Assembly: GCA_002753735.1 (NCBI GenBank)
Contig: PEAN01000045.1
Span: forward strand, 1 to 32,773
DNA length: 32,773 nucleotides
Direction of reading: 5' to 3'
DNA from: Magnetococcales bacterium DCbin4
GTDB lineage: Bacteria > Pseudomonadota > Magnetococcia > Magnetococcales > UBA8363
A program made the position numbers and the translations under genes. The notes under the pieces were generated by a model that was not told the origin of the DNA, did no database searches, and saw only the letters and a list, made by a program, of their open reading frames with translations. How positions within the stretch are numbered: position 1 is the first letter of the stretch; every line of letters begins with the position of its first letter. This document shows positions 5,857 through 11,711 of the stretch, piece after piece.

Positions 5857-7578
5857 CTACCCCACCGGCATCAACGGACAGGCTTCCTTGGCATTGCCGA
5901 TACGCTGGTAGATGGTTTTGAGTGCGATGTCGTCCGTCGCAAAAATATTGGCATCCCCACCCAGCAATTCGAACAACCCCGTTTTGCGCATGACATTGAG
6001 GACCTGCCGCTTCAGGCCGGAGAAAACCAGTTCCATTCCATGTTCACGCAGACGCTCCGACAGGTGGCGGATGACTTCTTCGCCCGAAGCATCCAGTTGA
6101 TTGATCCCGTCACCGACCACCAACAGATATTTTGCCTTGGGTTTGATCGCCAGGGCGGAAAGCAACTTGTCTTCGAAGTAGGCGACATTGGCAAAATAAA
6201 GTTGCCCGTCAAACCGGATCACGATGATCCGATCATCATCGGGAAGATGCGGATGGATCGCCATATCCCTCAGGCTGCCATCCTGAAACCGACCCAGAAA
6301 GGCCACTCTGGGCTGCATGGTACGGTACAGGAACAGCAGGATGGAGAGTCCCGCCCCCAGGAGGATGCCATGGTCCAGATGGGGCGCGAAACCCAGCGTC
6401 GCCACAAAGGTCACCACGGCGGCTGCACCATCATGGTGTGAAGCGTGCCAGGCATGGGCAATGGCCTTGAAGTTGATCAGACCAACCACCGCCATCATGA
6501 TCACTGCGGCCAACACCGCATCGGGCAAGTGATACAACAGCGGCGTCAGAAACAACAATGTGATCAAGACCGTCATGGAAGTGAACAAGGAAGAGGCACC
6601 GCTGGACGCCCCGGCATTGATATTGACCGCCGAACGGGAAAATGATCCCGAGGTCGGATAGGCCTGGGTAAAGGATCCGATCAGATTGGCCATCCCCTGA
6701 CCAATCAGTTCCTGATTGGGATCCAACGAAGTTTTGGTACGGGCTGCCATCGCCTTGGCGATGGAAATCGCCTCCATGAACCCGACCAGAGAAATGATCA
6801 CCGCGCTGGGCAACAGGGAAGCAATCATGGCGCCATCAATCTGAGGCATGGAGAAGCCGGGCAACCCTTCGGGAATTTTTCCCACGACCTTGCCGCCCAT
6901 CGCTTCGAACCCCAGCAGCCAACTGGCCAGCGTGGTCATACCAACGGCAATCAGCACGTTGGGCAGTTTGGGATGTTTTTTCTTGAGAAACATCATGAGG
7001 GCAAAAGCGATCACACCAAAGATCAGACTGGGGAAATGGGTTTGGCCGATCTGTTTGACCACCCCAAAGACATCCACGAGAAAATGCTCGCTCCGCCCCA
7101 TCTTGACCCCGAAAATTTTCGAAAGTTGCGACAGGCCGATGATGAGTGCGGCGGCATTGGTGAACCCGATGATGACCGGATGGGACAGAAAATTGACCAC
7201 CACCCCCAACCGCAGGAATCCCAGGCCGATTTGTACAACTCCGACCATCAGTGAAAGCGCGACCGCCATCGCCACGTAGCCATCGGAACCAACGGCCGCC
7301 AAGGGTGCCAGCGCCGATGCTGTCAGCAACGAGACCACAGCGACCGGTCCCGTGGCCAATTGACGGGAAGATCCGAACAACGCCGCCACCGCCCCGGGCA
7401 GAAATGCGGCATAGAGGCCATAGTAGGCGGGCAATCCCGCCAGATTGGCGTAGGCCATGGATTGCGGAATCAACACCAGGGCCACCGTAATCCCGGCAAT
7501 GAAATCATTGCTCAGATTGTGGCGATTCAGTTGCGGCATCCAGGATAGAAAAGGGAGAAATTTGTTTATTGCGCTCAT
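5857..7578 (-). CDS. SulP-family anion transporter with STAS domain
   Basis: This SulP (SLC26-like) inner-membrane transporter moves sulfate, bicarbonate or another anion, probably with H+ or Na+. From ATG 7578 it has 573 residues. It begins FLPFLSWMPQ and continues into the first membrane helices with the signature LIPQSMAYANLAGLPAYYGL. The family motif TSGSFSRSAVN lies near the middle. About a dozen hydrophobic segments are followed by a cytoplasmic STAS domain in the last 130 residues (DRIIVIRFDGQLYFANV...). A longer form starting at GTG 7626 is possible; the ATG fits the usual N-terminus better. It is the last gene of a three-gene operon with a sigma-54 promoter and ends in a good terminator. 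The substrate cannot be decided from sequence alone. Confidence 0.88.
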   Translation of the reverse strand: MSAINKFLPFLSWMPQLNRHNLSNDFIAGITVALVLIPQSMAYANLAGLPAYYGLYAAFLPGAVAALFGSSRQLATGPVAVVSLLTASALAPLAAVGSDGYVAMAVALSLMVGVVQIGLGFLRLGVVVNFLSHPVIIGFTNAAALIIGLSQLSKIFGVKMGRSEHFLVDVFGVVKQIGQTHFPSLIFGVIAFALMMFLKKKHPKLPNVLIAVGMTTLASWLLGFEAMGGKVVGKIPEGLPGFSMPQIDGAMIASLLPSAVIISLVGFMEAISIAKAMAARTKTSLDPNQELIGQGMANLIGSFTQAYPTSGSFSRSAVNINAGASSGASSLFTSMTVLITLLFLTPLLYHLPDAVLAAVIMMAVVGLINFKAIAHAWHASHHDGAAAVVTFVATLGFAPHLDHGILLGAGLSILLFLYRTMQPRVAFLGRFQDGSLRDMAIHPHLPDDDRIIVIRFDGQLYFANVAYFEDKLLSALAIKPKAKYLLVVGDGINQLDASGEEVIRHLSERLREHGMELVFSGLKRQVLNVMRKTGLFELLGGDANIFATDDIALKTIYQRIGNAKEACPLMPVG

Positions 7579-7644
7579 TGTTTTTGGTCTCGATACATTG
7601 GCTTTGAGTATGGATTGACCCCTCACGGGTGATCGCGCTTCGCC

Positions 7645-8019
7645 TTACGATTTGAATGAAACCAGGGTAATCGGAAATCCGCTTCGGTTAAGCATTCTTA
7701 TTTCCTTCATGTTTTTTTTCGCCAGTTCACGCAGACCGATTGCCGCCATGGGGGGTGGGGCGTTCAGGTTCAGATATCTACGCACCTTGTCCCAGGGAGA
7801 GCTTCCTTCGGGAAAGCGAAAATTCAGCCGGATCCCTTGACGCGCCGCCTTGGTGGTGCATGTCCCCAGAGCTTCAACGGCATCCTCCGGATGGGCCAAC
7901 CAGAGAAGATCCAGGTCGGCTTCCATGCGCGCACCAAGGTTCAAGGCGTAATCAAAAAGCCTGCCCTCTCCCGGCATGCCCATGAGCAACACCAGAAGTC
8001 GTTGTGAACGTACCAACAT
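7645..8019 (-). CDS. UspA-like small protein
   Basis: This is a soluble alpha/beta protein of 124 residues starting at ATG 8019, two bases after the TAG of the upstream small ORF, which suggests translational coupling. It begins with a hydrophobic beta strand (QRLLVLLMG) followed by a helix (FDYALNLGARMEADLDLLWL) and ends with another strand (FPITLVSFKS), an order that resembles one UspA/HUP fold unit. No clear ATP-binding G-x2-G-x9-G(S/T) motif is visible, so the family call is tentative. It lies between the small ORF and the SulP gene. UspA-like proteins often accompany SulP transporters, so a regulatory or stress-linked role in transport is plausible. A longer form from 8124 would overlap the upstream gene and is less likely. 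Confidence 0.6.
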   Translation of the reverse strand: MLVRSQRLLVLLMGMPGEGRLFDYALNLGARMEADLDLLWLAHPEDAVEALGTCTTKAARQGIRLNFRFPEGSSPWDKVRRYLNLNAPPPMAAIGLRELAKKNMKEIRMLNRSGFPITLVSFKS

Positions 8020-8021
8020 TG

Positions 8022-8207
8022 CTAATGGATGTGCGGGGTCACCGCTGGCAAGGAAGGGGAGGTGGTCTCCTGGGAGCGGGGCTGGACGAAGACCTTCTGC
8101 TCCTTGTTGTCCGAATCCAACCATTCCCGGGCGGAATCAGGAAGTCCACCTTCGGCCATGGCAGCCGCCGTCAACAGATCCTCAAGTCGAATCATCATGG
8201 ATTTCAT
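8022..8207 (-). CDS. Small hypothetical protein, first gene of sigma-54 SulP operon
   Basis: I do not recognise this 61-residue protein. ATG 8207 follows GAGAGAGATA. An in-frame earlier start at 8276 is excluded if the sigma-54 promoter at 8254-8268 is correct, because transcription would begin near 8242. The N-terminus is a short amphipathic helix (MIRLEDLLTAAAMAEGGL) and the C-terminus is polar and Pro/Ser/Thr-rich. No cysteines or membrane segments are present. It overlaps nothing and ends 2 bp before the UspA-like gene, so it probably belongs to the same transcript. Confidence 0.5.
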   Translation of the reverse strand: MKSMMIRLEDLLTAAAMAEGGLPDSAREWLDSDNKEQKVFVQPRSQETTSPSLPAVTPHIH

Positions 8208-8253
8208 GGGATATCTCTCTCTCAAAGGTGATGGAGTCATCACCTGGGGAATC

Positions 8254-8268
8254 GCAGGTTCCATGCCA
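8254..8268 (-). promoter_or_regulatory. Sigma-54 (-24/-12) promoter for the SulP operon
   Basis: On the minus strand the sequence TGGCATGGAACCTGC has GG and GC separated by exactly 10 nt, matching the TGGCAC-N5-TTGC consensus closely. The predicted start near 8242 leaves about 35 nt before ATG 8207. Two palindromic activator sites lie upstream (8342-8358 and 8450-8470), and an AT-rich tract suited to bending lies between at 8281-8320. Confidence 0.75.
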
Positions 8269-8341
8269 GGGACCATGACGGTCTATCATGTTGTTATATT
8301 TATATTTTATCCAAGGCTTATCCTGATCGGAACCGGCCTGT

Positions 8342-8358
8342 TGTTGCATTTGGCAACA
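8342..8358. promoter_or_regulatory. Proximal activator site TGTTGC-N5-GCAACA
   Basis: A 17-bp inverted repeat with TGTTGC at 8342-8347 and GCAACA at 8353-8358. Its centre is about 108 bp upstream of the predicted sigma-54 start. It shares arm sequence and spacing with the distal site, so both are likely bound by one dimeric enhancer-binding protein. The NtrC-type regulator encoded at 8483-9844 is the nearest candidate. Confidence 0.7.
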
Positions 8359-8430
8359 GAGAAATCAGAGGAGGGGGAATAAACTACGGAAGGCATTGAT
8401 ATAATTATATTATTCCAACTAATACATCAA

Positions 8431-8470
8431 TGTTGCAAACTGTTGCTGAACTGTTGCGACATGCAACAGT
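8431..8470. promoter_or_regulatory. Distal activator site with tandem half-sites
   Basis: TGTTGC occurs at 8431-8436, 8441-8446 and 8452-8457, spaced 10-11 bp and so on one helical face. The last pairs with GCAACA at 8463-8468. The palindrome extends to 8-bp perfect arms, ACTGTTGC (8450-8457) and GCAACAGT (8463-8470). It lies between the end of the response-regulator gene and the SulP operon, about 218 bp upstream of the predicted start site. Confidence 0.7.
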
Positions 8471-8482
8471 CGTCATGCGCAA

Positions 8483-9844
8483 TCAGTCCCCTGCCGCCTG
8501 GTACCTTTTCAGTTTGCGCCACAACGAAACCCGGTCAATCCCCAACATTTGCGCAGCCAAGGTTTGGTTACCCCCTGCCTTATGCTGGAAAACCCATAAA
8601 ATATAATCTCTTTCCCGTTCTTCCAAGGTGGAGACCTGTCCCTCCGCAGAGCGCAAAGTCAACAGTACCACCTCCCGCAAATCTTCGGGCAGATGTGAGG
8701 ACAACAGCGTTGCTCCGGAAGCCATGGCAACACCGCGTTCCATGATGTTGCACAGTTCGCGGACATTGCCGGGAAAATCGTAACCGGAAAGCAAGGTGAA
8801 CACTTCAGGATCGATTTCCTGAATATTTTTCTGGAACCGTTGATTGAACAAGCGCAGAAAATGGGCACAAAGCAAAGGGATATCCCCCTTGCGCCGTACC
8901 AAGGGTGGAATTTCCAGACGGGCGACGTTCATGCGGTAAAACAAATCCTGCCGGAAACGCCCCAGGCGCAACTCCTCGTTCAGATTGCGGTTGGTGGCAC
9001 CGATGAACCGGACATCGACCATGATCGGCGTGACATCGCCCAAACGGCGCAACTCCCGTTCCTGGATCACCCGCAACAATTTCACCTGCATGGAAGGGGG
9101 CATTTCGGTGATTTCATCCAGGAACAGGGTTCCGCCATGGGCCGACTCAATCAACCCTTTGCGTTCCGACACCGCACCGGTGAAGGCACCCCGGGCATGG
9201 CCGAACAATTCATTTTCCAGGACCCCTTCGTTGAACGTGGAACAATTGATGGCGACAAAGGTTTCGGGCTTGCGGCGACTGGCACGATGGAGGAAACGGG
9301 CAAACAATTCCTTGCCCACACCGCTTTCCCCGGTCAACAATACATTGCATCCGGAAGGGGCGATCTGACGTGCCGTTTCGATCAAGGCCAACATGGTGGG
9401 ATCACGGGTAATGATCACCCCCTCATCCGGGGATGAAGTCATCGCCGCACCCAGCTGGGACAGTTCCTGCTTTCTGTGTACCTTTTCCAATGCCTCGGCA
9501 GTGACCTTGCGCACCTCGTCCAGACGGAACGGTTTGGCCAGATAGGAAAACGCCCCACGTTTGACCGCCTCGACCGCCGAAGCCAAGGTGGCAAAACCGG
9601 TGATGATGATGACCTCGGTCCGAGGATAACAGCGTTGGCAGACATCGAGGATCCCCATGCCATCGACCTTGTCCATGCGCAGGTCGGTGAGTACCACATC
9701 GAAGTGCTGCTGTTCCAACAAGCGCAGAGCACCTGCGCCACTGCCCACCGTCACGACCTCATAGCCTTCCTTGCGCATGACATAGCCCAGATTTTTGACT
9801 GCGATCTTTTCATCATCAACAATCAGCAGACGTGCCGTGTTCAT
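8483..9844 (-). CDS. NtrC-family sigma-54 response regulator
   Basis: This 453-residue enhancer-binding response regulator activates sigma-54 RNA polymerase by ATP hydrolysis. Its receiver domain (residues 1-120) has the acidic pair in VDDEK, the phospho-acceptor D54 in LTDLRMD and K104. The AAA+ domain follows, with Walker A GESGVGKE (172-179) and the sigma-54 contact loop GAFTGA (219-224) intact. A Fis-type helix-turn-helix ends the protein (TLAAQMLGIDRVSLWRKLKRY). It starts 12 bp after the histidine kinase gene, forming a two-component pair. Palindromic sites and a sigma-54 promoter sit directly downstream, in front of the SulP operon, making that operon its likely target. The signal sensed is unknown. 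Confidence 0.95.
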   Translation of the reverse strand: MNTARLLIVDDEKIAVKNLGYVMRKEGYEVVTVGSGAGALRLLEQQHFDVVLTDLRMDKVDGMGILDVCQRCYPRTEVIIITGFATLASAVEAVKRGAFSYLAKPFRLDEVRKVTAEALEKVHRKQELSQLGAAMTSSPDEGVIITRDPTMLALIETARQIAPSGCNVLLTGESGVGKELFARFLHRASRRKPETFVAINCSTFNEGVLENELFGHARGAFTGAVSERKGLIESAHGGTLFLDEITEMPPSMQVKLLRVIQERELRRLGDVTPIMVDVRFIGATNRNLNEELRLGRFRQDLFYRMNVARLEIPPLVRRKGDIPLLCAHFLRLFNQRFQKNIQEIDPEVFTLLSGYDFPGNVRELCNIMERGVAMASGATLLSSHLPEDLREVVLLTLRSAEGQVSTLEERERDYILWVFQHKAGGNQTLAAQMLGIDRVSLWRKLKRYQAAGD

Positions 9845-9856
9845 GCGCGCATCTCC

Positions 9857-11341
9857 TCAATGCGACCTGGATGGGTGGGGAAGATACATCTGAAAGGTTG
9901 ACCCACTTCCGGGTTGGGAGTCAATGACCAGACAGCCCCCCTGTTCCTCAATGAGTTTATGCACCACGAACAAGCCCAGACCAAACCCCTTCCCCGTCTC
10001 CTTGGTCGTAAAAAAAGGGTCGAGAATCCGTGGCAACAGTGCGGGTTCGATCCCCGTGCCATTGTCCTGGATCACGATCTCCACCACCGGTCCCATGGCG
10101 CATGCGGCAAGATTGCCCACCACCAGCAGATTGGGCGATCCAGTATTCACATCAGGGACATGCGACAGATACCGGCTTGTGATCGTGATCTCGCCACACC
10201 CCGGCAGGGCATCCAGGGCATTTTTGATCAGATTGAGCAAAGCCTGTTGCAAACGCTGCCGATCCGCCATCACCACCAGGTCTGGTTCCACCCGCACACC
10301 CACAGTGATTTCAGGAACCAGGTGGGCACGCAACAATCGCAATGTTTCCTGCACAAGCCCCTCCAACAGGATCGATTGCCGTTGAAATGGCTGGTCCCGG
10401 GCAAAATCCAGCAGAGAACGGACAATGTCGCGTGCCCGAAACGTCTGGGAATCAATCTGGTCCAACAATTCCCGATGAAACGAACCGCTGGGGATCTCTT
10501 CCATCAGAATCTGACATGAGGTGGCAATGTTGGACAATGGATTGTTCAGTTCATGGGCCACCCCGGACAGCATGGTTCCCAGGGATGCCAATTTTTCGGA
10601 ACGGACCATCTGTTTCTGCCGGGCACTCAATTCCAGAAGCATACGGTTGAACGCCTGAATCAATGATCGGATTTCCTGGTCTCCCGACTCCAGGTCGATC
10701 CGGTTCGTTTCCCCCTGGGCAATGCGCTGCATGGTCTGCTCCAGGTTCTGCAGTGGAACGGTAATCACCTTGGCCAGAATACGGCCCATGATCCAGCCGA
10801 CCACCGCCAACAGAACAATGGCCAGCAAAAACATTTTCTGGTGCCGTTCCAAAGTTTGAGACAAGTAGATCTTTTCCGCGACCGCCATCTCTTCGGCAAT
10901 GGTCGCCAATACCTTGCCCGCCTGGCGAACCTGTTCCTTCCGCGTCATCAGGGTCACATCAGATTGACTCCAGGTCTGATATTGAACGCCCATGAGCTGC
11001 CGATACCGGGTCATGTGACGGATCAATTCGGTCCGTTTCCCAGCTACCCCGATCAGGTTCATGATGCGGTCGAAAAGAATCGCTTCCGCCTGGTTCAACC
11101 ATTCGTGATTGGACTCCCAATCCGATTTCTGGCCATAGAGAAAGAAGTTCTTCTCATAACGCCTCAATTCAAGAACCGCGTTCAGAAAGTCGGTGATGCC
11201 GCTGACGCTATGAATCCGGGTTTCCATCTGATGCAATTCAAGAAAGGCCATGCTCGCCAATGACATGATCAAACCACCGATGATGATATATCCCAGGGTG
11301 ATCTTTCGGCGCAAAGAGGAAGGGGACTTGAAAAGTTCCAT
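9857..11341 (-). CDS. Membrane sensor histidine kinase
   Basis: This 494-residue sensor kinase has a transmembrane segment at about residues 15-35, a mostly helical periplasmic region of about 130 residues, a second transmembrane segment at about 170-190, and a HAMP domain. The HisKA domain carries the phospho-acceptor H263 in VAHELNNPL. The catalytic domain shows the N box (LNLIKNALDA), the G1 box (DNGTGIEP), the F box (FFTTK) and the G2 box (GFGLGLFVVHK). The HELNNPL form is typical of kinases paired with NtrC-type regulators, and the next gene is one. The helical sensor region resembles four-helix ligand-binding modules; no specific ligand can be named. Confidence 0.93.
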   Translation of the reverse strand: MELFKSPSSLRRKITLGYIIIGGLIMSLASMAFLELHQMETRIHSVSGITDFLNAVLELRRYEKNFFLYGQKSDWESNHEWLNQAEAILFDRIMNLIGVAGKRTELIRHMTRYRQLMGVQYQTWSQSDVTLMTRKEQVRQAGKVLATIAEEMAVAEKIYLSQTLERHQKMFLLAIVLLAVVGWIMGRILAKVITVPLQNLEQTMQRIAQGETNRIDLESGDQEIRSLIQAFNRMLLELSARQKQMVRSEKLASLGTMLSGVAHELNNPLSNIATSCQILMEEIPSGSFHRELLDQIDSQTFRARDIVRSLLDFARDQPFQRQSILLEGLVQETLRLLRAHLVPEITVGVRVEPDLVVMADRQRLQQALLNLIKNALDALPGCGEITITSRYLSHVPDVNTGSPNLLVVGNLAACAMGPVVEIVIQDNGTGIEPALLPRILDPFFTTKETGKGFGLGLFVVHKLIEEQGGCLVIDSQPGSGSTFQMYLPHPSRSH

Positions 11342-11498
11342 GAACCATCATGACCTTGAACGAGCGAACGTCCGGACACCATGCGAATTAATGAAAGTTA
11401 TAATATAAATAACCATAAACAACAGAGATAATGCTGTTTATTATATGGATTTATTTATTACTTTTGTTAAATCACTTTGTCCGCACGAAAAAAATGGG

Positions 11499-11711
11499 TC
11501 AGGGGAGGTCGTTTGCCGAAACAATTTTTAGGAGACGGTTGAGGTCGCTGGCAGACAATTCGGTATTGAAGGAAAGCGGGATCAAGCGGGTCTGAACCTT
11601 GGAATCCGTTGCGGAAACCTCGGGACAAACGGTGGTTTGATGGGGATGGGCGTGGCTGGGAACGGCGTCGAAACGATTGGCTACGATATTATTATTATTG
11701 ATATTTTCCAT
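11499..11711 (-). CDS. Small hypothetical protein
   Basis: This is an unrecognised 70-residue protein. ATG 11711 follows an unusually strong ribosome-binding site, GGAAGGAGG, which favours it over the earlier in-frame start at 11747 and argues that the gene is expressed. The N-terminus is Asn-rich (MENINNNNIVANRF). A His/Pro-rich stretch follows, and the C-terminus has a probable helix (SASDLNRLLKIV). There is one cysteine, no membrane segment and no signal peptide. It is 157 bp upstream of the kinase gene on the same strand. No terminator is obvious between them, so co-transcription with the two-component genes is possible. Confidence 0.55.
   Translation of the reverse strand: MENINNNNIVANRFDAVPSHAHPHQTTVCPEVSATDSKVQTRLIPLSFNTELSASDLNRLLKIVSANDLP

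Follow-up and report, generated by a model that had tools for sequence, protein, structure and literature searches.

Is a SulP anion transporter operon in a Magnetococcales genome controlled through sigma-54 by the two-component system encoded beside it, and, if so, which DNA sites would be used and which anion moved? The window (the whole stretch of DNA that was analysed, 32,773 nucleotides) lies within contig C30 of a draft genome of 4.52 Mb (4,521,331 bases). Its preliminary description had proposed a sigma-54 promoter, paired TGTTGC-N5-GCAACA operators, and activation of sulfate or bicarbonate transport by an adjacent NtrC-type regulator. The results below make it very likely that the locus is a complete sigma-54 control unit with a paired-enhancer regulatory mechanism. 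This degree of confidence applies to the regulation and leaves the transported substrate aside.

Organisation of the locus

In the regulator tree a named Magnetococcales record (L084) is nested in the clade formed by same-order genomes, which makes this order the probable one. On the minus strand the kinase gene is followed by the NtrC-type regulator gene, 275 bp of intergenic DNA, a 61-aa ORF, a 124-aa ORF, and the SulP gene (Table 1). The AAA+ domain of the regulator was detected by PF00158 (E=6.4e-66) and its GAFTGA loop is intact; a regulator of this type next to the operators, as originally described, is therefore confirmed, and the kinase adjoins it. The recognition segment IDRVSLWRKLK in the Fis-type HTH is nearly invariant across the regulator family, which fits one common DNA code. 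The genome contains one intact copy of rpoN (a single PF04552 match, 527-aa open frame). In the very AT-rich region 5' of the kinase gene (11380-11500) no palindrome was seen, hence no autoregulation site, in contrast to loci with divergent genes.

The transporter has both SulP (PF00916, E=1e-106) and STAS (E=1.6e-16) domains. It scores above the cut-off of the NCBIfam model TIGR00815 sulP and below that of the NCBIfam model for DauA.

The first gene of the target operon (7645-8207) is Usp-like and divided into two ORFs in different frames. The same division is present in locus L142 of the same-genus genome G007, which contains the same operon (82% identity in SulP, 81% in the regulator), which makes a sequencing error less plausible. 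The gene is one ORF in other loci, some of them from Magnetococcales. The 61-aa ORF resembles the N-terminal segment of this gene in related operons. Its likely start is the ATG at 8207, since the longer ORF 8022-8276 would begin 5' of the predicted transcript. The 124-aa protein has no Pfam match. It occupies the position equivalent to that of the cluster 3 protein, the first gene product of the related loci, which has a weak Pfam Usp match (20.8 bits, cut-off 24). The earlier UspA-like reading is supported by these relatives, at a score under the Pfam cut-off and with the window protein itself unmatched.

Table 1. Features of the SulP control locus (window coordinates)
Feature	Position	Strand	Basis or remark
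Membrane histidine kinase	9857..11341	-	N-terminal sensor region (unclassified), HAMP, HisKA, HATPase
NtrC-type response regulator	8483..9844	-	receiver, AAA+ with GAFTGA, Fis-type HTH
Distal enhancer palindrome TGTTGCGACATGCAACA	8452..8468	.	TGTTGC-N5-GCAACA, centre ~ -218
Further TGTTGC half-site	8441..8446	+	sequence; not conserved in L142 in alignment
Third element, half-site TTGCAACA	8431..8438	-	13 bp from distal palindrome
AT-rich tract between enhancer sites	8397..8429	.	sequence
Proximal enhancer palindrome TGTTGCATTTGGCAACA	8342..8358	.	TGTTGC-N5-GCAACA, centre ~ -108; kept in L142 and Betaproteobacteria
Predicted -24/-12 element TGGCATGGAACCTGCG	8253..8268	-	GG-N10-GC spacing; predicted transcript start near 8242
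61-aa ORF MKSMMIRLEDLL...	8022..8207	-	separate ORF in L142 too (48% identity); motif comparison
124-aa Usp-like protein, C-terminal part	7645..8019	-	frame differs from 61-aa ORF; open up to 8124
SulP anion transporter with STAS domain	5857..7626	-	likely start ATG at 7578

Operators and promoter

The genome search for the 17-bp palindrome that had been suggested as a check was performed. TGTTGC-N5-GCAACA has two exact matches in the 4,521,331 bases, both between the regulator gene and the SulP operon, at a chance expectation of about 0.3, and a reversed control pattern has none. The two palindromes are 110 bp apart and, given a transcript start near 8242, their centres fall near -108 and -218, in full agreement with the preliminary description. 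The extra half-sites that it listed are also present (TGTTGC starts at 8431 and 8441). A pattern scan allowing two mismatches returned 268 matches against 148 for the control, too many for a regulon to be called from that scan alone. In the genomes of 100 relatives the exact palindrome occurs mostly as single, scattered matches, so exact-match counts away from the locus are no evidence. No palindrome was found in the regions examined around the four other SulP genes of this genome.

The -24/-12 element agrees with the consensus at 9 of 12 positions and its spacing is correct. Its score is ordinary, because 21 sites in the window reach 9 or more; a sigma-54 scan by score alone was for this reason rejected as uninformative. 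What makes the element convincing is its position and conservation: a 23-bp block containing it (TCCCTGGCATGGAACCTGCGATT, 8250-8272) is identical in L142, in which the flanks have diverged. The proposed element is thereby upheld, with its start corrected from 8254 to 8253.

Conservation in related loci

A scan of named genomes with the regulator yielded 80 relatives (46-65% identity), and an order-level search about 27 more, 20 of which were taken into the analysis. The closest comparison, L142, keeps the two palindromes at the identical 110-bp spacing, while most of its other intergenic DNA has diverged. Across 101 loci from several phyla (here and below, shared ancestry is ignored and the counts are not independent, as the related loci share ancestry), 52 palindromes with at most one mismatch were found upstream of the kinase gene. 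This is about 250-fold over permuted controls: 25 sets of permuted arms with the same composition gave a mean of 0.2 matches in the same zone. Palindrome density in these loci is 5.1 per 10 kb upstream of the kinase and 0.1-0.7 elsewhere. The relatives L056, L057, L067, and L161 have weak upstream palindromes or none.

Palindromes and promoters also occur at regular distances. Of 79 loci, 46 have on the target strand a sigma-54 match (score at least 9) at 40-140 bp from a palindrome. Shuffled consensuses gave 6.2 such loci on average and 12 at most, and the strand towards the kinase gave 16; about 40% of the palindrome-bearing related loci have no sigma-54 site at the threshold used. In the 30 loci with the full set, the sigma-54 site and the proximal palindrome are separated by 78-83 or 88-94 bp, and the proximal-distal spacings cluster near 66, 88, 110, and 121 bp, with a strong periodicity of about 11 bp (R=0.73). 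The half-site TTGCAACA is found 12-13 bp after the distal palindrome in half of them (15/30), while five control octamers were not found at this position in any of the 30. The position of this third half-site and the steps of about 11 bp support enhancers of the looping type. In an alignment of eight sequences the invariant columns fall into four blocks, which correspond to the distal site, the half-site, the proximal site, and the promoter.

Proposed mechanism

From the sequence we infer the following chain of events, which leads from signal to substrate. The membrane kinase would perceive some signal and phosphorylate the NtrC-type regulator, dimers of which would bind the TGTTGC-N5-GCAACA sites. 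Occupied sites would be the distal palindrome, along with the accessory half-site at a distance of two helical turns, and the proximal palindrome, which precedes the -24/-12 element by about 89 bp; the AT-rich tract is a possible bend region. An AAA+ ring would then assemble, reach sigma-54 RNA polymerase through DNA looping, and open the promoter near 8242. The transcript activated in this way would comprise the split Usp-like pair and the SulP transporter. The locus would be one variant of a module found widely, with the regulator, the operators, and the Usp-like gene fixed and the transporter exchanged.

The earlier proposal that the pair activates anion transport has strong comparative support, because the kinase-regulator pair, the operators, and anion transporters recur linked across several phyla. 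This backing extends to the promoter, the enhancers, and the control of a SulP/UspA-like operon; sulfate and bicarbonate are both candidate substrates.

Transporter exchange and substrate

In many Magnetococcales and in many Betaproteobacteria (Thiobacillus, Sulfuritalea, Sulfurisoma, Sulfuricella, Rhodocyclaceae), SulP and the kinase-regulator pair are arranged divergently. Genomes of Nitrospirota and of the Desulfobacterota type have in the same position genes for a Usp-like protein, a small membrane protein, TauE/SafE, and a tandem Usp, and a few of these loci contain CitMHS/DASS with Usp. Across loci the regulator and the Usp-like gene are thus constant and the transporter varies between SulP, TauE/SafE, and CitMHS/DASS. 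The regulator tree requires at least four changes of transporter type. In L146, which is near the window in this tree, TauE is found exactly at the place of SulP, with the co-directional kinase, regulator, palindromes, and target retained.

We lean slightly towards a cross-phylum regulon, in which one regulator family and one code (palindrome pair, half-site, and 11-bp steps) would serve non-homologous, interchangeable SulP, TauE/SafE, and CitMHS/DASS transporters. If this is true, these transporters would all deal with one and the same anion, or stress, in sulfur- and energy-limited autotrophs, and three unrelated transporter families would be tied to one common signal. Many uncharacterised sigma-54 regulators of uncultured sulfur and nitrogen cyclers would gain a concrete DNA code. 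If the signal were then identified in a single tractable member (Thiobacillus or D. vulgaris), transporter annotation in many phyla would benefit.

Members of the SulP family transport sulfate, bicarbonate, and further anions. The role of the window operon is most likely the movement of an oxyanion across the membrane under anion or energy stress, with sulfate or sulfite as the best guess. A sulfur oxyanion is favoured because of the TauE/SafE and DASS replacements and because many carriers metabolise sulfur.

Several related loci have additional features. A hexapeptide-repeat protein (cluster 8) is encoded beside the regulator or SulP in L033, L034, L041, L073, and L106; it resembles gamma-class carbonic anhydrases and scores below the NCBIfam cut-offs. 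Genes for hydrogenase-4-like membrane subunits (HyfB-type and NuoH-type, clusters 4 and 9) follow SulP in L034, L035, L038, L046, L049, L106, and others, which suggests in Betaproteobacteria an energy-coupled complex tied to anion transport. Betaproteobacterial SulP proteins (L101 2-2068, minus strand, and others) contain between the transmembrane halves a charged-rich insertion of about 130 residues, which is absent in the window SulP.

A further operon of TauE/SafE, a 162-aa membrane protein, and tandem Usp is present in the same genome as the window (L168, G000:C97, 162-2599). A one-mismatch palindrome, TGTTGCAAAATGCAATA, is located 64 bp upstream of its TauE ORF, and of 11 related genomes about half have comparable sites upstream of operons of this type. 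The upstream region of the L168 operon, which is a possible second target of the same regulator, showed no clear sigma-54 element.

Alternative explanations

The palindromes could be the sites of some other regulator that controls the SulP operon without involvement of the adjacent two-component system. Their role is read from sequence, and other NtrC-type paralogues exist in relatives (46-49% identity). However, the palindrome travels with the present regulator family across phyla while the targets change, and the more distant Magnetococcales homologues in other gene contexts (L108-L110) have no close palindrome match upstream, which makes a different regulator quite improbable. Even less credible is that the inverted repeats are RNA hairpins, the distal one, 14 bp past the stop codon of the regulator gene, being a terminator or RNA stabiliser. 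Although ACTGTTGC-N5-GCAACAGT could give an 8-bp stem directly after that gene, no T-run follows the repeat. In most relatives, moreover, the palindromes lie between divergent genes, 5' of both transcripts and at fixed helical distances from a sigma-54 site; the hairpin or terminator reading was rejected on these grounds. The -24/-12 match might also have arisen by chance, with transcription of the operon starting at a sigma-70-type promoter or running on from the regulator gene. The abundance of sites with a like score and the co-directional genes would allow this, but the block shared with L142 is identical despite its diverged flanks and a corresponding site and distance recur in dozens of loci, so a chance match deserves as little credence as the hairpins.

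The remaining alternative is unlikely to a lesser degree. It is about the substrate alone and does not conflict with the regulatory mechanism: promoter and enhancers would be real, and SulP would carry bicarbonate for carbon fixation. The possible carbonic-anhydrase-like neighbour in the betaproteobacterial loci named above keeps bicarbonate among the candidates, an Acidithiobacillus SulP near a carbonic anhydrase has been proposed as a bicarbonate transporter, and many carriers are probably autotrophs. Beside the window operon, however, no carbonic anhydrase was identified, the window SulP reaches 145 bits with the NCBIfam BicA model (cut-off 880), and replacement by TauE and CitMHS/DASS better fits sulfur oxyanions or organic acids. 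A sigma-54 control unit with paired enhancers, with a sulfur oxyanion as the favoured substrate, is the preferred reading.

Comparison with known systems

The window SulP has its transmembrane domain and STAS domain in common with SulP/SLC26 structures (sulfate transporter 4.1, 7lhv; 6ki1). In the literature outside subscription journals, no description of a SulP operon with sigma-54 control of such design was found. The statement in the preliminary description that sigma-54 control of a SulP/UspA-like operon is undescribed needs to be narrowed: the kind of circuit is known (DVU3305, DVU0539/0540), and it is the SulP target for which no description was found. The SulP-controlling version, its DNA code, and the spread of this code look undescribed.

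As far as the available part of its description goes, NmpR of the Myxococcus xanthus NmpRSTU system resembles the window regulator in being NtrC-type and in having two N5-spaced inverted repeats 5' of a sigma-54 site, with which its two GCGCA-N5-TGCGC sites act jointly (PMC11841059). The same part of that paper also treats universal stress proteins. It differs from the window in the consensus and in its low-oxygen regulon, and no anion transporter is reported there. For the regulatory mechanism proposed here NmpR is an experimental precedent, as are DVU3305 and DVU0539.

In Desulfovibrio vulgaris, DVU0539/DVU0540 control DVU0542-0545, which encode Usp proteins and a putative sulfate (anion) exporter of the PSE family, and the DVU0542 promoter was activated in E. 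coli by the regulator of this system. By description it is like the window in combining a kinase and a sigma-54 regulator with Usp and anion transporter genes, in D. vulgaris divergent from the pair. It is unlike the window in its transporter family, and its authors link it to lactate and molybdate.

DVU3303-3305 of D. vulgaris, with Usp genes and an anion transporter under its control, is the closest known system (PMC3333781, PMC10102598, also PMC4641369). DVU3305 targets its own operon and DVU3302-3298, which encode Usp-domain proteins (Rajeev et al. 2011), and DVU3299 is a putative anion transporter important under chlorate (PMC10102598). As in the window, a kinase and a sigma-54 regulator adjoin Usp-like and anion transporter genes. 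The window differs in its target, a SulP gene with a split Usp-like pair, in the loop of its regulator (GAFTGA, in DVU3305 GAFSGA), and in that no receiver-Lon protease gene adjoins the locus; none was found in the window genome either, where Lon matches cover query residues 234-663 only, with no receiver, and represent ordinary Lon.

Rajeev et al. (2011) reported DVU3305 orthologues whose sites are conserved, and which mostly neighbour a receiver-Lon gene, in Thermodesulfovibrio, Thioalkalivibrio, and Dechloromonas. These hosts are the same kinds of organisms as the carriers of the present family, and a DVU3303-like receiver-Lon gene lies beside regulators of this family in 12 loci (L032, L036, L037, L039, L056-L059, L067, L087, L090, L104), its product being a receiver fused to AAA+ and Lon protease. 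The likeness is one of description, and probable kinship rather than proven membership is meant, but with receiver-Lon genes beside 12 of its relatives it is very probable that the window system is part of the broader DVU3305-type family.
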